DNA of 39,306 bases, taken from Candidatus Kaiserbacteria bacterium RIFCSPHIGHO2_02_FULL_49_16. Its GTDB lineage: Bacteria; Patescibacteriota; Minisyncoccia; Phycocordibacterales; UBA2100. The stretch covers positions 15,816-55,121 of the forward strand of contig MFLD01000036.1 of assembly GCA_001781465.1 (NCBI GenBank). The letters run 5' to 3'. Positions 4,921 to 28,269 of this stretch are shown here, one piece after another. Numbering within the stretch: position 1 is the stretch's first letter; every line of letters begins with the position of its first letter. Under the pieces are notes generated by a model. That model saw nothing but the letters and a program-made list of their open reading frames with translations, had not been told where the DNA came from and searched no databases. The position numbers and the translations under genes were made by a program.

Positions 4921-4966
4921 TTATAAACCATTCTAGTATTTTGCAAAATACTAGAATGGTTTATAA
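4921..4966. promoter_or_regulatory. Perfect 46-bp palindrome over the promoter of the HTH gene (candidate operator)
   Basis: ttataaaccattctagtattttgcaaaatactagaatggtttataa equals its reverse complement; TATAAT at 4962-4967, 6 nt before the ATG at 4974. Confidence 0.8.
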
Positions 4967-4973
4967 TCATCCT

Positions 4974-5270
4974 ATGACAGATAATCCTAACCATATACAT
5001 ACGGGCAACTTCCGAAGACTTGAGCGCGTGGTGAAAGGTTTCGCAAATCATCGACGATTGGAAATACTCCACTTGTTACATAAGGAACCAGAACTTTCCG
5101 TTGAGGATATTTCAGAGCGGCTGAACATCGGGTATGAAAACGCATCCGATCATCTGCGAAAGATGGCAATCGCGGGCCTCATTCTGAAACGCAATGAGGG
5201 TAATAATGTGAGACACAAACTCACGCCTCGCGCGGAATCTATTCTAGTGTTTTGCAAAATACTAGAATAG
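4974..5270 (+). CDS. ArsR-like winged-helix transcriptional regulator
   Basis: FANHRRLEILHLLHKEPELSVEDISERLNIGYENASDHLRKMAIAGLILKRNEGNNVRHKLT. Start at 4974 preferred because the ORF-track start lies inside the palindrome. Confidence 0.82.
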   Translation: MTDNPNHIHTGNFRRLERVVKGFANHRRLEILHLLHKEPELSVEDISERLNIGYENASDHLRKMAIAGLILKRNEGNNVRHKLTPRAESILVFCKILE

Positions 5271-5272
5271 AT
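5237..5272. repeat. Second copy of the ATTCTAGTRTTTTGCAAAATACTAGAAT palindrome, overlapping the HTH gene stop codon
   Basis: atctattctagtgttttgcaaaatactagaatagat, 36 nt with a single mismatch; contains the TAG stop. Confidence 0.8.
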
Positions 5273-5991: not shown

Positions 5992-6049
5992 AAGACCTGC
6001 TGTTTTTTAACGGTTTGAGTGATTCCTCCGTTAAAAAATAGCAGGTCTT
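5992..6049. terminator. Bidirectional terminator-like hairpin between the convergent GNAT gene and purA
   Basis: aagacctgctgttttttaacgg ... ccgttaaaaaatagcaggtctt, 22-bp stem with one mismatch. Confidence 0.75.
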
Positions 6050-8976: not shown

Positions 8977-11900
8977 ATGACTTCTCCCGGCGCAAAATAT
9001 CTTGAAGGCCTGAACGAAGTCCAAAAACAGGCTGTTTTGCACAAAGACGGGCCGCTTTTAATCGTCGCGGGGGCTGGCGCGGGAAAGACTAAAACCATAA
9101 CTCACCGAATCGCACATCTCATAGAGAGCGGGGTGCCATCTAGGAGCATTCTTGCCGTCACATTCACCAACAAGGCGGCGGGGGAAATGCGCGAGAGGGT
9201 GAGCCGGCTTCTTCCTGGGGCGCGAGGCGGACTGCCGCTCATTGCGACATTCCATTCGCTCGGAGTCCGTCTCCTGCGGGAATTCCACAAAGAGGCGAAA
9301 ATCCCCCGCGGGTTCTCGATTTGGGACCAAGACGATAGCTCACGAGCGGTCAAAGCCATTTTGAAACAACTCGGCACCGATGAATGGACGCCGAGGCAGA
9401 TACTTTCGGCAATTTCGCGCGAAAAGGGAGCGGGGAAGGCGATGCGCGACTATCGCGAAAAAGCGGGAAACCGCCGTGAACAGATGGTGGCGCTCGTATG
9501 GGAGCGATACGAAAAAGTTCTGAACGAAGAAGGCGGACTCGACTTTGACGACCTTCTGTTTCGTACTCTCACACTTTTCCGCGACTCGCCAAAAACACTT
9601 TCGCTTCTGCAAAATCGCTGGCACTATCTAACGATTGATGAGTATCAGGACACAAGCGCTGTGCAATATGAAATGATGAAGCTTCTTTGCGGGGATCGGA
9701 GCAATATTTGCGTAGTGGGCGACTTGGACCAGTGTCTCGTTGCAGGAACACAGATAACCATGGCTGACGGTACGACAAAATCGATTGAGTCCGTACATGC
9801 TGGGGATTTCGTTCTGTCCAATCACGGAAGCGGACACCTAAAACCCACAAGAGTGACTCGTTCTCGCTCGCGCAAATTCACGGGCGACCTCGTTGAGCTC
9901 ACATTCAAGTCGGGCAAAAAACTCGCGAGTACTCCGGAGCATATCCATTTCGCCGGATATAGATTGGGAATCGTTCCGCAATCATATTTCACATATCTTA
10001 TGCATAAGCGAGGCATCGGGTGGCGTATCGGCGTTTCGCAAGTGTATACAAACGGGCAGCGGATGCCGATGATTGGATTTCGGCTTCGCTACAATCAAGA
10101 ACATGCTGACAAGGTGTGGATTGTTGGCACGCACACGACACCAAATGAAGCCCGTGTTTTTGAGTACATCACTTCGCTCGAGTACAAAATACCAACCATT
10201 CCCTTCGTGGCCCGCAAAGGCCTAAGTCTAAAGGGTTATGTGCATGACCAACGGGCAATAGAAAGTGTGTTTGAACATTTTGATACCGACAGCGCGGCGC
10301 GCAAACTCCTGAAAGCGCGCGGACTAACTTATGAATATCCTCATCATCGCGCGCAGGCAACGACAGGCGAGCGGCGGAACATCGTCGTTACACTTTGCGG
10401 AAGCCAAAGAAAGATGACGCCGATGCATCGCATTGCTATTGCCGCAAGCGACCCAAAAGACAAGCGGGCACTCGAATCAATAGGCCTCTCGATACGACCG
10501 GCAAAAAAAGGTTCGGCCAATTGGCGATTCGAAAGCGCGTACAAAGATTATGGGGCTTTGTGTGAAATCGTGAAAAAAATACAGGCCGTATTGCCACACG
10601 CAGAAGTTGTCGAGATGGCGCGCCTCGGTGGCAACAAAAAGAAACCGAAAGACGGCAATTCTCTCCCATATCTACCGGCCAGCTCCGTTTTGCCTGGCAT
10701 GGCAGTGTTCGACGGCAAAAATAACTACGATATTGTGGAGCGGGTTAAGCGTGTCCCCGCAAAACAATCTTTGGTTTACGACTTGGACATCGAAAATACC
10801 CATAACTTCATAGCAAATGGCATTGTGACCCACAATTGCATCTACACATGGAGACAGGCGGAGATTGAGAATTTGCTTTCGTTCGAGCGCATTTTTTCCA
10901 AAGCGAAAGTCGTTCGGCTCGAACAAAACTACCGCTCGACGCGGACAATTCTTGCCGCGGCAAATTCTGTGATTGAAAAAAATTCAAATCGCATTCCAAA
11001 AACGCTTTTCAGCGAAGGCGCGACAGGCGAGCCGATAACAACCTACGATGCGATGAATGAGCGGGACGAATCGTGGTTTGTCGTTGAGCAATCGGCGCTG
11101 TTGATGGATAAAAAAGTGCCCGCGAATGAAATCGCGGTTCTTTATCGGGAAAATTCACAGTCGCGAGTGCTGGAGGAAGCTTTTTTGCACGCGGGCTTGC
11201 CGTATCGCGTGCTCGGCACGCGATTTTTCGAGCGCAAGGAGGTGAAAGATGTGCTTTCATATCTGCGGGCTGGGCTGAATCCCAAAAGTAAAAGTGATGT
11301 GGTGCGAATAGTCGGAGTGCCTCCTCGTGGAATCGGGAAGGTAACGCTTGAGAAAATGTTTGCGGGCGAAGTATTGGGTGGAGCCGGGGCAAAGGTGACG
11401 GCGTTTCAAAGCACGCTCGCAAAAATCAGAGAGGCCATAAAAGTTTTACCCGCATCTGAAGCCGTTCGTTTCTGTATTGAAGCAAGCGGGATACAAAAGA
11501 TGTTTGATGGAAAAACAGAAGAAGGCCGTGAACGGCTCGGCAACATCCGTGAGTTGGCAAACCTCGCGGCAAAATACGAGAACGAAGAACCGCCGTCGGG
11601 AATTGAGAAACTTCTGGAAGAAGCCGCTCTCCAGAGCGAGCAGGACCAGCTTGACGTGGACAAAGACAAGGGGGGCGTCACTCTTATGACGGTGCACGCT
11701 TCCAAAGGACTGGAGTTTGATGCGGTCTTTATAGTGGGAATGGAACAGGGGCTGTTTCCATCTATGAGGAACGATGCGGAGCGAGACCCGGAAGAAGAAC
11801 GACGGCTGTTTTATGTTGCTCTCACGCGCGCACGAAAGCATTTGTTCCTTTCTTACGCGCACGAGCGCACAAAGTACGGTTCGCGGGAAGGAGCAGTGCC

Positions 11901-11982
11901 ATCAGAATTTTTATCCGATATTGACTCCCGATTGATGAAACATGCGACGAATACTGAGGAAAAGGAGGATATTATTGATTGA
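8977..11982 (+). CDS. UvrD/PcrA-type superfamily I DNA helicase interrupted by an intein
   Basis: Helicase motifs: AGAGAGKTKTITHRI, FTNKAAGEM, LDFDDLL, DEYQDT, VGDLDQ|CIYTWRQA, QNYRST, VTLMTVHASKGLEFDAVF, ALTRAR. Confidence 0.93.
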   Translation: MTSPGAKYLEGLNEVQKQAVLHKDGPLLIVAGAGAGKTKTITHRIAHLIESGVPSRSILAVTFTNKAAGEMRERVSRLLPGARGGLPLIATFHSLGVRLLREFHKEAKIPRGFSIWDQDDSSRAVKAILKQLGTDEWTPRQILSAISREKGAGKAMRDYREKAGNRREQMVALVWERYEKVLNEEGGLDFDDLLFRTLTLFRDSPKTLSLLQNRWHYLTIDEYQDTSAVQYEMMKLLCGDRSNICVVGDLDQCLVAGTQITMADGTTKSIESVHAGDFVLSNHGSGHLKPTRVTRSRSRKFTGDLVELTFKSGKKLASTPEHIHFAGYRLGIVPQSYFTYLMHKRGIGWRIGVSQVYTNGQRMPMIGFRLRYNQEHADKVWIVGTHTTPNEARVFEYITSLEYKIPTIPFVARKGLSLKGYVHDQRAIESVFEHFDTDSAARKLLKARGLTYEYPHHRAQATTGERRNIVVTLCGSQRKMTPMHRIAIAASDPKDKRALESIGLSIRPAKKGSANWRFESAYKDYGALCEIVKKIQAVLPHAEVVEMARLGGNKKKPKDGNSLPYLPASSVLPGMAVFDGKNNYDIVERVKRVPAKQSLVYDLDIENTHNFIANGIVTHNCIYTWRQAEIENLLSFERIFSKAKVVRLEQNYRSTRTILAAANSVIEKNSNRIPKTLFSEGATGEPITTYDAMNERDESWFVVEQSALLMDKKVPANEIAVLYRENSQSRVLEEAFLHAGLPYRVLGTRFFERKEVKDVLSYLRAGLNPKSKSDVVRIVGVPPRGIGKVTLEKMFAGEVLGGAGAKVTAFQSTLAKIREAIKVLPASEAVRFCIEASGIQKMFDGKTEEGRERLGNIRELANLAAKYENEEPPSGIEKLLEEAALQSEQDQLDVDKDKGGVTLMTVHASKGLEFDAVFIVGMEQGLFPSMRNDAERDPEEERRLFYVALTRARKHLFLSYAHERTKYGSREGAVPSEFLSDIDSRLMKHATNTEEKEDIID
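9733..10836 (+). other. Intein coding segment (368 aa) within the UvrD-like helicase
   Basis: Begins CLVAGTQITMADGTTKSIESV (block A) with TPEH (block B); ends VYDLDIENTHNFIANGIVTHN followed by C+1 (blocks F/G); inserted between GDLDQ and CIYTWR. Confidence 0.93.
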
Positions 11983-11983
11983 T

Positions 11984-12796
11984 ATGAAGAAGGGCGCTCG
12001 GTTAGGACAGCATTTTTTGAAATCACCTTGGGCCGCGCGCGCTTTAGCGCGCGCGGCAAACATTACAAGCGAGGATACTGTCCTCGAAATCGGTCCGGGG
12101 AAAGGAGCTCTCACGCGCGAACTCCTCTCGGCGTCAAAAAAAGTAGTCGCGATTGAAAAAGACGAGGCACTGGTGGAAAAATTGCGCGAAAAATTCGCAC
12201 GGGAAATCTTCACCGGCGCGCTTACAATCATTTCCGGCGACATACGAGACATAACTCCTGAAAAACTGGGGCTCGCTTCCGGAAAATACATAGTGGCCGC
12301 GAATATTCCGTATTACATCACAGGGGAAATCATCCGTCAGTTTTTGACGGCGGAGGAACAACCTCGCGCGATGGCGCTTCTTGTGCAGAAAGAGGTCGCG
12401 CAAAGAATCATCAGTAAGAAGGAGAGTTTGCTTTCGCTTTCGGTCAAAGTGTACGGGATTCCAAAGATCGTTGCAAAGGTCCCGCGAGGAAATTTCACCC
12501 CTGCGCCAAATGTTGACTCGGCGATTCTTCTCATCGGTAACATTTCTCGGCAATTTTTCGCAGACCCCGTTAGAAGCGATGCTTATAACGGGGCAGGTGT
12601 AAATGAAAACTTATTTTTTAAAGTTATTCGCGCAGGATTTAAATCTAAAAGAAAATATCTCCTTAACAATCTCGCCCACTTATTCGGGAAAGAATCTGCG
12701 ACTCGCGCGTTTGCCAGTTGCGGAATCAATATGAAAGCGCGGGCAGAAGATGTTACGCTTGAGGCATGGAAATGTCTTGTTCTTAAATTAACTTAG
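11984..12796 (+). CDS. rsmA/ksgA: 16S rRNA (adenine1518/1519-N6)-dimethyltransferase
   Basis: GQHFLKS, VLEIGPGKGALTREL, AANIPYYITGEII, FTPAPNVDSAIL. A TTG start at 11975, closer to aaaggagga, is an alternative. Confidence 0.92.
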   Translation: MKKGARLGQHFLKSPWAARALARAANITSEDTVLEIGPGKGALTRELLSASKKVVAIEKDEALVEKLREKFAREIFTGALTIISGDIRDITPEKLGLASGKYIVAANIPYYITGEIIRQFLTAEEQPRAMALLVQKEVAQRIISKKESLLSLSVKVYGIPKIVAKVPRGNFTPAPNVDSAILLIGNISRQFFADPVRSDAYNGAGVNENLFFKVIRAGFKSKRKYLLNNLAHLFGKESATRAFASCGINMKARAEDVTLEAWKCLVLKLT

Positions 12797-13200
12797 AATT
12801 GTCCGCTGGTTCCACCGCCGCCACTAGTGCCACCACTGCCTACGAATGGGGGTGGCACATAAGCAGGGGCCGGAGCACCGCTCGACCCCATCATCTCAAT
12901 TGCTACCCCGGGGATAACAACCGGGCCTATCGGCAATATGACACAGATATAGGGAATGCTCGTGAGACCTAGTAGCCACTTACCAGGAGCAGGAGGACCA
13001 TTTGAATAGGTACGAGTGATTGGCGTCCATAGATAAATTCCTGGGTTTGGAGGACCAATCAGGGCAAGGATACTTCCGCTAAAAAAGCAAGGAAGAGCAA
13101 TCTTTGTTTGGCCGCCGAAAGGATAAGCAAGCGCGACGTTGGGCGCGCTAAAAAGAAGCATCGCGCACAACATTAGAACCGATATGTGGCGTCGAAACAT
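12793..13200 (-). CDS. Small exported protein with signal peptide and Gly/Ser/Pro-rich C-terminus
   Basis: Signal peptide HISVLMLCAMLLFSAPNVALA; convergent with ksgA. Confidence 0.6.
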   Translation of the reverse strand: MFRRHISVLMLCAMLLFSAPNVALAYPFGGQTKIALPCFFSGSILALIGPPNPGIYLWTPITRTYSNGPPAPGKWLLGLTSIPYICVILPIGPVVIPGVAIEMMGSSGAPAPAYVPPPFVGSGGTSGGGGTSGQF

Positions 13201-13279
13201 AAGTTATATTCTAACACTACTAGTGCGGGTATCTGGAATATCAACGATAATCAACGGCCGTATAGAATCGTTGATATGT

Positions 13280-13314
13280 TCACATGCAGTGAGGCGACGC
13301 CTCACTGCATGTGA
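13280..13314. repeat. 35-nt palindrome upstream of the 13367 gene
   Basis: tcacatgcagtgaggcg-a-cgcctcactgcatgtga, 17-bp perfect arms. Confidence 0.8.
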
Positions 13315-13336
13315 GGAGTTTCGTGTGCTGTTGCTA

Positions 13337-13371
13337 CTCAACGCTATACGCTATACGCTATACTCTATGAA
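13337..13371 (+). repeat. Heptad array running into a start codon
   Basis: CTCAACG CTATACG CTATACG CTATACT CTATGAA (ATG at 13367). Confidence 0.85.
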
Positions 13372-14290
13372 CTGGCTTCGCGCTCACAGATATACAGCCA
13401 CGCTAATCGCGGCGGCCGTTTTCGTTGTCGTTGGCGGAATACTGGCAAAAAATAAAGAGGGAACAGTTGTACTAATAAGCGGAGATACGCGAAATGTTTC
13501 GGTGGGATATCCATATTACGCTCCGCCTGCTATATCTCCGGAGGTTAAACCTCCGGAGATTGCAGACAACGCGTCTCCGCGCGCGCTATTTTTTGGCCAA
13601 AAAGTAAAGTTGGAAGAAACTCCGGCCATATCTCCGGAGGTTAAACCTCCGGAGGTTCTGGCGGTAACTCGAAATAATTCTCTCGACAATCAATACGCAC
13701 TTTTCTTTAAAGCACTTTCAAATATTCTCTCGCCCGTTGATAAACGTACTCCGGAGCAAAAGGTGCTTTTTGATTATGGAAATCAAGTTGGACTGGCAAT
13801 ACGAAATTTTGAAGATACGCACGGCAACGTTACTCAAGTATTAAGAGACTTCTTTGATAGCCGTACCGACTTCGCTAAAATAGCGAGCATCCCTGAAGCC
13901 GCGGATAAATACGCGCAACTAACCGCGTTGATTGGAGGCAAGAATCAATCAGTTTCCAAGGAATCCGCAATGGCAAATGTTCAAGGAGTCGTGAATGACT
14001 ACGCGCAATTGAGTGTCGCGATACGGAACGTACCTAATGTTCCTCCGCAAGTAGAATCAGCGAATGCGAAACTCTCAAGGGGATACTCCGATGTAGCACA
14101 GGGTCTTTCTCTCCTTACAAAAACAGAAAACGAAGCCCAGTTGCTTGAAGCCATCAAAGCGTACAACGCTGATGCGGATGAATTTATAGAAAATTACGTG
14201 TATCTCATACAGCTTTTCTCCGCGTATGGAGTAAAATTCTCCGCAAACGACCCGGGCTCCGTTTTTTCTTTCAGTTTTGGGGGTCTCTAG
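13367..14290 (+). CDS. Hypothetical membrane-anchored exported protein (secretion cluster)
   Basis: N-terminal TM ATLIAAAVFVVVGGILA after MNWLRAHRY; the upstream extension in the ORF track runs through repeats and is rejected. Confidence 0.7.
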   Translation: MNWLRAHRYTATLIAAAVFVVVGGILAKNKEGTVVLISGDTRNVSVGYPYYAPPAISPEVKPPEIADNASPRALFFGQKVKLEETPAISPEVKPPEVLAVTRNNSLDNQYALFFKALSNILSPVDKRTPEQKVLFDYGNQVGLAIRNFEDTHGNVTQVLRDFFDSRTDFAKIASIPEAADKYAQLTALIGGKNQSVSKESAMANVQGVVNDYAQLSVAIRNVPNVPPQVESANAKLSRGYSDVAQGLSLLTKTENEAQLLEAIKAYNADADEFIENYVYLIQLFSAYGVKFSANDPGSVFSFSFGGL

Positions 14291-14342
14291 AGACTCCACA
14301 CGTCAAATCAAGGGGAGTCCTTGATTCGCTTCTCACGCCAAG

Positions 14343-14365
14343 TGTCAAACACCGAGTGTTTGACA
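14343..14365. repeat. TGTCAAACAC palindromic repeat, copy 1
   Basis: tgtcaaacaccgagtgtttgaca. Confidence 0.8.
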
Positions 14366-14581
14366 TTTCAGAGAAATACCCAGGGTCTCAAATACTCCAA
14401 TTCTCGAGGAGACACCTTGCAAATGCCAAGAAGTCACCTCGAGATTCAAAATCCGCGAGGAGGGGCCTTTGGTGTTTCCACTATTTTCTCCGCTAGCTGG
14501 CGGGTGCCAGCTTCATGGGTGTTATAATTTCTATGTGGAAGACAAACGCGCCCCGTTAGAAGCGTGGAAGTTTTGAGTGTT

Positions 14582-15475
14582 ATGGATATACAAAACCGCA
14601 ATAAGAAATCACCTTGGCTTCTAACGGGGCAGGCGAACGATGCGGGGCGTTTTTTGCTGTGGCGGCCTACCATGGGAATAAAATTCTCTCCAATGGCGTT
14701 CGCCGCGGTATTCTCCGTCGTAATATTTCTAGCGGCACTCGGCTGGCGCGCGACTAGAACAATAGAAACCCTTAATCCAAACTCTTTCTCTGATACAAGC
14801 GGGATTAACGGGCTTAGAAACAACGATGGCCGTGTGATTACTGCTGGGGCTACTGTTGGCGCGCAAGCCAGGGCATACGCGACATCATCAGACCCGAACA
14901 ACTTCTCGAATGTGCAATACGATGTGTTCGGACAGCTACTCGGCGCTTATGTGGAGCTTAAAAACTCCGGCACATACACAGAGGGAAAAGGGGTAGACCT
15001 CGCGAATCGTATTGCCGAGACGACTATGGCGCCTGTCGCGTATGCCGAAATCACGAGAGACAAAATAAAAACCGACGCGGATGTATCGCGCGAGCGAGTG
15101 ATTGCTTACAGGAGCGATTTGCAAACAGCGCTCGCGCAGCTTCTCTTGAATACCGAGTCCGAATTGGGGATTTTCAACAGGTACGCGCAAACCCAAGACA
15201 AACATCATCTCGAAACCTTGAGGGAGGTCGCGGGAAGGTATCACAAAACTGTTTCTCTGCTCTCTGCGATGACTGTTCCGAAGGACGCGCTTGATTACCA
15301 TCTCGGCATCACCAACTCCCTTTTGGAATTCGCGACAACACTCGACGCGATGATGAGAAACGCGGATGACCCGATGGCGACTTTGGCGCTTCTGCGCACA
15401 TACAACATGGCTGAAGAGAATGTGTACGCATCTTTCAACTCTCTCGCCTCGTACGAAAAGCGGAAAATTCTATGA
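14582..15475 (+). CDS. Hypothetical membrane-anchored protein (secretion cluster)
   Basis: TM segment FSPMAFAAVFSVVIFLAALGW; ORF ends overlapping the next start. GTG at 14564 is an alternative start. Confidence 0.7.
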   Translation: MDIQNRNKKSPWLLTGQANDAGRFLLWRPTMGIKFSPMAFAAVFSVVIFLAALGWRATRTIETLNPNSFSDTSGINGLRNNDGRVITAGATVGAQARAYATSSDPNNFSNVQYDVFGQLLGAYVELKNSGTYTEGKGVDLANRIAETTMAPVAYAEITRDKIKTDADVSRERVIAYRSDLQTALAQLLLNTESELGIFNRYAQTQDKHHLETLREVAGRYHKTVSLLSAMTVPKDALDYHLGITNSLLEFATTLDAMMRNADDPMATLALLRTYNMAEENVYASFNSLASYEKRKIL

Positions 15476-17061
15476 ACACGAAAATTTCATTCATCCTTCT
15501 TATTTTTGCATTAGCTGTATTCGCTTTGCCCAGTGGTACCAACGCTCTAGATGTCACCGCCCCGGTAATTGATTGTCGGAATGCCCCGTCATCAAGCGTG
15601 GGGCGCACAGCGGCAATGGGAGGGTCATTCGTCCCAGTGAGCGATGCGGCTGTCACGCTAAATACCGGCATTTTGGTCTACAAAGAATGTGTTTTGAACG
15701 AGCTGATAAGCAAGCAGGTACAATTTCAGACTTCCAAGCTGCTAAAATCAACTCTTGAGGATTTCGTGGGAGGCAGAGAAGTGTGCAACTGGGTTGACGA
15801 CCAGTACATTTGCGAAAATAGGTCGTACTACCCTACAAATCTTCCGAAAGAATTGGCGGAAGTTGCGCAAAACACAGTGACAGAGGGCTTGAATGGCGAT
15901 CTGTACAATCAAATCCCTGATTCATATCAAGGCCTAGTTAAGCAGGCAGTTTATCGCACGAATGCCCAACAAACCAAAAATCCGGGCGCGTCGTTCGCAT
16001 GTTCGTACGAGGGAACGCCAGCGGAGCTCATCGCTGTTCAGAACGGTTCATACAACGGACCGCGAGACCTTTTTGCTGTTGCTGATTCAAACTGCAATCC
16101 GCTTCTAAGTTACTACAATGTGAAAAGCGACATCATGGGCAGAGCGAGTGCGGCAACGCAAAACACGCTTACCGAGCTCTCCATGAATAACAACGTGTAC
16201 AGCAAGACAGAGATAGATGAAAACGGCCTGCGGCGCGTTACCGTTCCCGGATTTATTTTGGCCAATAACTTGGGAGAGAAACTTGGTTCTGGTTTCCGCC
16301 AGCTTGAAAACCAGCGAGAGACTGGACAGCTTGTTGACAAATTTTTCTCAGGAATAGGAAATCAGCTCATCTCCGCGGGCATTGGCGGGCTCAAAGGCCT
16401 TCTCAGTTCGTCGCCCGGGCAACCATCATACATCGACCAAGTGGTCGCCAATACCAGCGCGGCGGCGCAAAACACGCAAACAGCCTTCACGACGGACGCC
16501 GTCTTGGTGGCACTCGGGAATGAACAGGAATTTCTGAGGGCAAAACAAGCAACGGCCGGCATCCTCAGGCAAAAAGATGCGCAGTTGCACGCGGCAGAAG
16601 ATAGATGCTGGAGCGACTTTGTGCTCCCTACCGTAAACCAATTTGCCCAGACAGAAAATATTACGTTTACTCGCAAAGCAACATCAACGGAGCGTTTCGC
16701 GCAAACGGTCATAGACGCAAACATTATTCCTCTCTTGAGTTCAATCAATGCCGAGATTACCGTTTCCAGTACAACGCTTAACGCGGTAAATACCATAGCT
16801 ATCGGGGTTGCCAACCGCACCGTAGACCAAGTTGATGCCTACAATCAGATAAACGCGCTCCGTACGAGCGGAGCGCTTCATACTTCCGACCAGAAATATG
16901 CCGCTGTCCAAGAAACAGAAAATGTACAGGCCGCGATAACAAGCGTCGTTACAGACATTATAAAGAAATGGGGCGATAGCATGAGCCTGCCTGAAGGATG
17001 GTGCAACACCCTCAACAATAAAGACGCTGTAACTCAATACTGGGTGAACAAGTGGAGATAA
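15472..17061 (+). CDS. Hypothetical exported protein (secretion cluster)
   Basis: Signal peptide MNTKISFILLIFALAVFALPSGTNA; start overlaps the preceding stop (ATGA). Confidence 0.75.
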   Translation: MNTKISFILLIFALAVFALPSGTNALDVTAPVIDCRNAPSSSVGRTAAMGGSFVPVSDAAVTLNTGILVYKECVLNELISKQVQFQTSKLLKSTLEDFVGGREVCNWVDDQYICENRSYYPTNLPKELAEVAQNTVTEGLNGDLYNQIPDSYQGLVKQAVYRTNAQQTKNPGASFACSYEGTPAELIAVQNGSYNGPRDLFAVADSNCNPLLSYYNVKSDIMGRASAATQNTLTELSMNNNVYSKTEIDENGLRRVTVPGFILANNLGEKLGSGFRQLENQRETGQLVDKFFSGIGNQLISAGIGGLKGLLSSSPGQPSYIDQVVANTSAAAQNTQTAFTTDAVLVALGNEQEFLRAKQATAGILRQKDAQLHAAEDRCWSDFVLPTVNQFAQTENITFTRKATSTERFAQTVIDANIIPLLSSINAEITVSSTTLNAVNTIAIGVANRTVDQVDAYNQINALRTSGALHTSDQKYAAVQETENVQAAITSVVTDIIKKWGDSMSLPEGWCNTLNNKDAVTQYWVNKWR

Positions 17062-28227: not shown

Positions 28228-28269
28228 CCTGTTCCTTATCCAATCCGGCCGGATTGGATAAGGAACAGG
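28228..28269. repeat. Perfect 42-bp palindrome between yidC and jag
   Basis: cctgttccttatccaatccggccggattggataaggaacagg equals its reverse complement. Confidence 0.85.

Follow-up and report, generated by a model that had tools for sequence, protein, structure and literature searches.

How a palindromic repeat can lie within the reading frame of ksgA, the gene for the 16S rRNA adenine dimethyltransferase, and again around the start codon of a neighbouring gene, is the question raised by a stretch of 39,306 nucleotides from Candidatus Kaiserbacteria bacterium RIFCSPHIGHO2_02_FULL_49_16 (contig MFLD01000036.1, positions 15,816 to 55,121; hereafter the window), whose genome, G000, comprises 905 kb in 46 contigs and is ~91% complete. 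Taken as a whole, the features are best explained, with a probability of roughly 0.8, as copies of a non-autonomous transposable palindrome resembling a miniature inverted-repeat transposable element (MITE), with BCCCGTTAGANNN repeats, a 4-bp YNNR target duplication and a putative translational relay at start codons.

Two copies of one dispersed palindrome

The palindrome in ksgA is 29 bp long, its arm at 12565–12577, CCCCGTTAGAAGC, differing at one position from the arm at 12581–12593 (CCCCGTTATAAGC on the reverse strand), and an exact inverted pair of 13-mers (14 bp counting the next base) is found at 14551–14563 and 14617–14629 around the ATG at 14582. An earlier note on this DNA had described both, with coordinates that all proved correct when checked in the sequence; the pair that it saw as enclosing the 14582 start is indeed exact but forms the ends of a single inserted element of 79 bp and not two separate repeats. 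Allowing up to two mismatches the 13-mer was matched four times in the window, against 0.79 expected and with none of 100 shuffles reaching four, and a search of the whole G000 genome, as the note had proposed, revealed a dispersed family with 29+27 occurrences of HCCCGTTAGA (2+3 for the reversed control). Since both the window count and the genome-wide count exceed the shuffles and the control, chance is excluded. The ksgA hairpin and the 14551–14629 pair represent separate copies of a single dispersed element, BCCCGTTAGANNN...N'N'N'TCTAACGGGB'.

Copies were gathered from G000, its relatives, a phylum sample and 119 public contigs (n = 287, chosen blind to their flanks). Common to them is the inverted-repeat structure B CCCGTTAGA NNN ... 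N'N'N' TCTAACGGG B', in which the 9-bp core is invariant and position B of the arm is C or T, seldom A or G. Position B and the inner bases differ among copies but are complementary within a copy, the inner triplets pairing in 210/287 copies against a shuffled mean of 26, a figure helped partly by the arm-match filter. The commonest lengths are 29, 120 and 53 bp, the shortest members being 27–29 bp, and the RNA of the element folds stably (z -3.5 to -5.9). At the start codon of the SMC gene the insertion measures 228 bp in G000 (L016) and 120 bp in the related genome G013 (L438), and likewise at L035 and L430; copies at one site therefore lengthen or shorten by ~108 bp in place.

The insert in ksgA consists of 33 bp, the 29-bp element plus a 4-bp duplication, and encodes the 11 residues PVRSDAYNGAG (KsgA 195–205), the ksgA of relatives being precisely 33 bp shorter at this site. 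Among the best KsgA matches of 29 genomes of the same genus only G022 and G014 harbour the insert, both at the same site: the copy in G022 is perfectly palindromic and shares its insertion nucleotide, loop and flanks (CAGA/CAGG) with that of the window, and the one in G014 is decayed and still reads DPSRSGALSGAG. The earlier note had suggested looking for KsgA orthologues of equal length without the palindrome, and what was found instead is that the remaining correctly read KsgA rows have exactly 11 residues fewer (L080, a wrong open reading frame (ORF), is outside the count, and the true KsgA of L067 is without the insert). In an AlphaFold model of KsgA, with a mean pLDDT of 88.9, the sole internal segment below 50 is 196–203, preceded by a strand/helix pair and followed by a helix, as might be predicted for the surface loop that the note had in mind, and solved KsgA structures are gapped at this position, where the loop varies in length. 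The ksgA copy would accordingly be placed in a tolerated, probably unstructured loop. In the KsgA tree G013 and G041 are joined (99/93) within a clade holding G000, with G022 outside, the branching of these three not being fixed by further analysis. As the insert is found in G000, G022 and G014 and not in the G013+G041 clade at least two changes are needed on this tree, and precise loss, exchange or repeated insertion must therefore be assumed.

Target duplications, filled and empty sites

An exact 4-bp direct duplication flanks 166/287 copies, 5000 shuffles giving a mean of 18.7 and a maximum of 35, and all but one of these duplications (165/166) fit the sequence YNNR. In 106/118 copies the first and fourth bases of the duplication are complementary, and the adjoining bases favour R..Y, which suggests a dyad-symmetric target (RYNNRY) of the kind typical of a cut-and-paste transposase dimer. 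One copy is nested within another, each with its own duplication (TGAG[..TGAA[..]TGAA..]TGAG), and arm counts on the two strands differ widely within the genus, with 63+59 in G013, 32+35 in G041, 29+27 in G000, 4+7 in G014 and 0 in G002. The site at 14551–14629 is also filled in G013, where the flanks are CGCG/CGCG, and is uninterrupted in G041 and G022, while the gene at 15472 has a plain ATGAACACG start in the window, a 119-bp copy in its start codon in G013 and a decayed copy in G041. In-frame copies are found in UvrD of G013 and of G017 and none in UvrD of the window. Terminal inverted repeats, a target duplication of fixed length and filled/empty polymorphism, three marks of a MITE, are all present, and the element behaves as a transposable element.

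For copies inside open frames the length plus 4 is divisible by 3 in 19/19 cases (51/112 elsewhere), and in 9/9 in three genomes. On either strand two of the three frames run through the palindrome without a stop, reading PVR...SNG or PLE...LTG, and a compact copy with its duplication (29+4 = 33 bp) keeps the frame; a peptide similar to that of KsgA, PVRGRASNGAG, is encoded in genes other than ksgA, for example in uvrD of G017. In this respect, in-frame insertion into ORFs with a short encoded peptide, the element resembles the Rickettsia palindromic elements (RPEs). An arm joins the prepilin cleavage motif ...LTG-FTLIEL at seven places in public loci and also in 4/145 phylum genomes, the Gly of the motif being encoded by element DNA. 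Prepilin genes with an element or arm at the leader-peptidase site were observed at L141, L159, L181, L194, L208 and L213, with L159 containing two neighbouring prepilin genes that carry one each. The only gene families recurring beside copies are housekeeping genes and prepilins.

A putative transposase acting in trans would make a 4-bp staggered cut at the RYNNRY site and paste the element in. The surviving copies occupy places where the gene stays translatable: in-frame sites, the prepilin cleavage motif and, most prominently in this genus, the start codon A^TGNR.

Start codons and a putative translational relay

When the copies with exact duplications in G000 and G013 are considered, 27/48 are situated exactly within a start codon, A^TGNR being converted into ATGNR-[element]-TGNR with the last base of the element restoring ATG or GTG. 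Judging by the window, 0.16% of all YNNR sites are start codons, a share that rises to 1.8% when only non-coding and start sites are counted, and since 27/48 stands against ~1.8% the excess is not explained by purging of harmful insertions; targeting or positive retention is needed. The genes struck, identified by eye from their N-terminal sequence, include those for bL35, bL31, uS2, L17, SMC, the signal peptidase LepB, AroA, DapB, MetF and ThrRS, and placement at start codons also occurs among Omnitrophota copies.

The start-codon copies of the 120-bp subfamily are all oriented alike relative to the gene, and the frame of the native start spans the element for 39 codons (MNPVRSxGSS...SEAQASYF) to a TAA situated 4 bases before the regenerated ATG (TAACGGGATG), giving the ending TAA-CGGG-ATG. 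This relay frame is open in 16/18 of the 120-bp copies (null mean 2.36; 0/2000 shuffles reach 16) and contains 3 stops in the 18 copies, compared with 23 and 31 for the two alternative frames, the middles having a median identity of 38%. The same 4-nt gap is kept by one 96-bp and two 228-bp copies, and single start-codon copies of 119 bp and 131 bp form in-frame fusions. The 79-bp copy of the window has its own layout, identical in G013, in which the native GTG at 14535 is followed by MEDKRAPLEAWKF, a TGA at 14574–14576, five bases and the ATG at 14582. Sequence reasoning suggests that the element end TTCTAACGGGATGAA would be compatible with expression in all three frames, by a TAA 4 nt before the start, an in-frame fusion or an ATGA overlap.

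Ribosomes would then begin at the native start and read a short ORF across the element, leaving it either at the stop beside the regenerated start (TAA-CGGG-ATG) with subsequent re-initiation, by read-through as an N-terminal fusion, or by way of a start codon within the element, the last being the presumed route of the 79-bp copy. Start-codon insertion with re-initiation goes beyond what was foreseen in the earlier note. The coordinates of the region are collected in Table 1.

Table 1. Genes, element copies and target duplications at ksgA and the downstream genes (window positions)
Feature	Position	Strand	Basis
ksgA (16S rRNA adenine dimethyltransferase), 270 aa, with in-frame 11-residue insert PVRSDAYNGAG	11984..12796	+	Pfam PF00398, 1.1e-48; alignment of relatives
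Target duplication, left copy CAGA	12561..12564	+	sequence; identical in G022
Compact palindromic element, 29 bp, arms CCCCGTTAGAAGC / GCTTATAACGGGG, loop GAT	12565..12593	.	ksgA of relatives exactly 33 bp shorter here; perfect palindrome at this site in G022
Target duplication, right copy CAGG (one change)	12594..12597	+	sequence; identical in G022
TATAAT, probable -10 box in the promoter of the downstream gene, leaderless or nearly so	14523..14528	+	similar distance in G013, G041, G022
Short ORF from native GTG (14535–14537), peptide MEDKRAPLEAWKF, into element, TGA 14574–14576	14535..14576	+	element-free G041/G022; same arrangement in G013
Left target duplication CGCG	14547..14550	+	CGCG on both sides in G013
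Element of 79 bp with CCCCGTTAGAAGC as 13-bp terminal inverted repeats and a stop-restart of its own (TGA, 5 nt, ATG 14582)	14551..14629	+	filled in G013, empty in G041 and G022
Right target duplication, now CAGG (CGCG in G013)	14630..14633	+	comparison with G013
Downstream gene, coding for 297 aa without a Pfam family; element DNA supplies codons 1–16 (MDIQNRNKKSPWLLTG)	14582..15475	+	sequence; Pfam search; relatives
Empty start-codon site ATGAA of next gene	15472..15476	+	G013 orthologue filled (119 bp); decayed copy in G041

Other palindromes were also observed in the window. A second family, (T)TCTAGTATTTTG/CAAAATACTAGAA, forms near-perfect loopless inverted repeats at 4921–4966 and 5237–5272 and in L047 at about 310–340, with a variant elsewhere in the genome. 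A third, ATCTCCGGAGGTTAAACCTCCGGAGAT, is found at 13534–13560 and 13630–13656, both within the ORF 13139–14290 and in a similar peptide context (AISPEVKPPE), and long perfect or near-perfect inverted repeats are situated at 13280–13314, 5992–6049 and 28228–28269, with arms of 17, 22 and 21 bp, respectively. The UvrD/Rep helicase of the window (8977–11982) is split by an intein with Hint and intein-splicing domains, and in the UvrD fragment of G017 (L067) the C-terminal end of an intein is visible.

Range, mobiliser and competing explanations

A pattern scan covered 257 Gb and, because ~116 chance matches were estimated, taxa were counted solely where a target duplication is present. The contigs with duplication-flanked copies carry the labels Omnitrophota, many Patescibacteria groups, Nitrospirota, Planctomycetota, Pseudomonadota, Thermodesulfobacteriota, Nitrospinota, Elusimicrobiota, Cloacimonadota and Riflebacteria, together with one archaeal bin (Aenigmatarchaeota); as all of these are metagenome bins, single contigs may be misplaced. 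Several element-rich genomes contain ~100 arms per strand. About nine viral contigs carry exact duplications, some being redundant (apparently the same site twice), and most viral matches were set aside as terminator-like palindromes. At ten viral loci (L240, L246, L252, L261, L272, L288, L290, L298, L301 and L308) palindromes with the CCCGTTAGA core have A-tract/T-tract flanks and no target duplication; such hairpins are recurrent and apparently unrelated to the element in function. In a Deltaproteobacteria genome (L343) four like-oriented arms ending in CGTTAGAGGAC or a variant are found at 326, 1356, 2235 and 3189, ~0.9–1 kb apart, with no ORF of at least 120 codons between them.

Candidates for the mobilising enzyme were tried and rejected. 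The IS4/IS5-type transposase PF01609 is absent from 14/14 genomes tested and IS1380 (PF13701) from most element-rich genomes, and in the loci examined the element showed no linkage to PF01609, PF13701 or PF01797. Repeat pairs 0.15–4.5 kb apart, considered as long autonomous copies, turned out to be two separate or short compound copies with ordinary ORFs between them. Around arms that seemed to stand alone in two element-rich genomes, diverged mates were present in most cases and, by eye, no transposase was seen.

Several points weigh against the interpretation as a transposable element with a relay. Neither an autonomous copy nor a partner transposase with matching repeats was found in the loci examined, which cover few families and genomes, and the wording "MITE-like" was chosen for this reason. 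To our knowledge, no transposon substrate is as short as the 29-bp unit. The ksgA duplication carries one mismatch (CAGA/CAGG) and 42% of the copies have no exact duplication; YNNR targets stand on both sides in 47 of the 86 copies whose flanks clearly differ, as is expected when copies recombine with each other, and many inexact copies with two differing YNNR flanks suggest such recombination or decay. The 19/19 in-frame count is partly built in, because an intragenic call required the frame to be open across the copy, and the relay shuffle test (16/18) is not fully independent, as the 18 copies share ancestry at their ends. Coupled re-initiation at start-codon copies is deduced from sequence. 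Of 27 exact-duplication copies in the distant genome G326 just one is located at a start codon, which makes the start-codon habit lineage-specific. The fuller proposal, a transposable palindrome of many phyla, down to ~29 bp in size and with a putative mobiliser, which in one lineage actively prefers start codons and brings a translated relay ORF, by which ribosomes would be handed on to the regenerated start and the element tolerated in essential genes, is tentative, and we would put it slightly below an even chance.

A conserved regulatory RNA hairpin (terminator, attenuator or leader), whose covarying stems would reflect RNA function and not mobility, might be suspected from the perfect, covarying stems (210/287 vs 26), the stable folds (z -3.5 to -5.9), the many copies beside start codons and the likeness of some same-core viral palindromes to intrinsic terminators with A-tract/T-tract flanks. 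Target duplications, empty sites and nested copies, copies within coding frames and prepilin signal sequences, and a search of Rfam in which no family scored above gathering score nevertheless render it quite unlikely, and an RNA role could be a secondary effect at some loci. Movement as a repetitive extragenic palindromic (REP)/REPIN-type repeat by a RAYT (Y1 tyrosine transposase) is very unlikely: such repeats are likewise small palindromes (20–40 bp, PMC3733652) and the G000 genome has five Y1_Tnp matches, yet the GTAG tag occurs in 0/118 and CGTC in 4/118 copies, ~7 each being expected by chance, exact 4-bp duplications are not known to result from single-strand Y1 insertion, G101, G326, G309 and G168 bear the element without a Y1_Tnp match, and 20 Y1_Tnp loci are unflanked by arms (one incidental copy lies ~1 kb off near L235).

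It is extremely improbable that the arm is a DNA-uptake-signal-like 10-mer, hairpin-paired, of competent bacteria, since the copies are insertions with sharp bounds, flanked by target duplications and matched by empty sites, the arms covary pair by pair past the core and numbers range from 0 to ~60 arms per strand inside one genus, even if a short core common within a genome and mostly in inverted pairs recalls such signals. Ordinary protein-length variation, with the palindrome a chance of codon usage, is scarcely credible even for KsgA, where the loop does vary in length; the gap is exactly 33 bp, the DNA palindrome is perfect in G022, dozens of copies exist genome-wide and PVRGRASNGAG recurs in other genes (UvrD of G017).

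When the transposable palindrome is compared with known systems, the RPE interpretation of the earlier note stands in so far as a mobile, dispersed palindrome enters essential ORFs in frame and adds a short peptide at surface-exposed sites. RPEs are described as 105–146 bp long, with target duplication unknown, from Rickettsia and Wolbachia (PMC2229807, PMC3767692), in about 10 families (PMC2229807, PMC3767692, PMC10969869); the element differs in its 9-bp core, 29-bp minimal (and commonest) form, 4-bp YNNR duplication, start-codon insertion and spread over many phyla, and membership in an RPE family is not supported. Reviewed prokaryotic MITEs are about 100–200 bp with ends mostly TA (PMC2229807). 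With Correia/NEMIS, RUP, ERIC and YPAL the element shares short non-coding or short-ORF units, terminal inverted repeats, target duplications and presumed movement in trans, and it differs from them by a size down to ~29 bp, 4-bp YNNR targets and an ORF whose reading begins at the host start codon. REP/REPIN repeats with RAYT are 20–40 bp palindromes in many copies and several phyla (PMC3733652), in contrast to which the element lacks the GTAG tag and a RAYT gene link and has target duplications. A literature search, with bioRxiv and most subscription journals outside its scope, turned up no paper in which either the core sequence or the peptides figure in such a context. The element is regarded here as a new MITE-like family, the new points being its size, YNNR target, range, start-codon habit and relay.

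Insertion into a start codon ought to destroy a gene, and here it is repeated in housekeeping genes of a reduced genome, so that coupled translation after transposon insertion becomes testable from existing sequence. For annotation, N-termini of the type MNPVR..SNG and prepilins with LTGFTLIEL in candidate-phyla genomes would be footprints of mobile DNA. That one family is shared in subsurface communities by bacteria, viruses and an archaeal bin indicates a route of exchange not described before, and the mover of 29-bp hairpins is a target for enzyme discovery.

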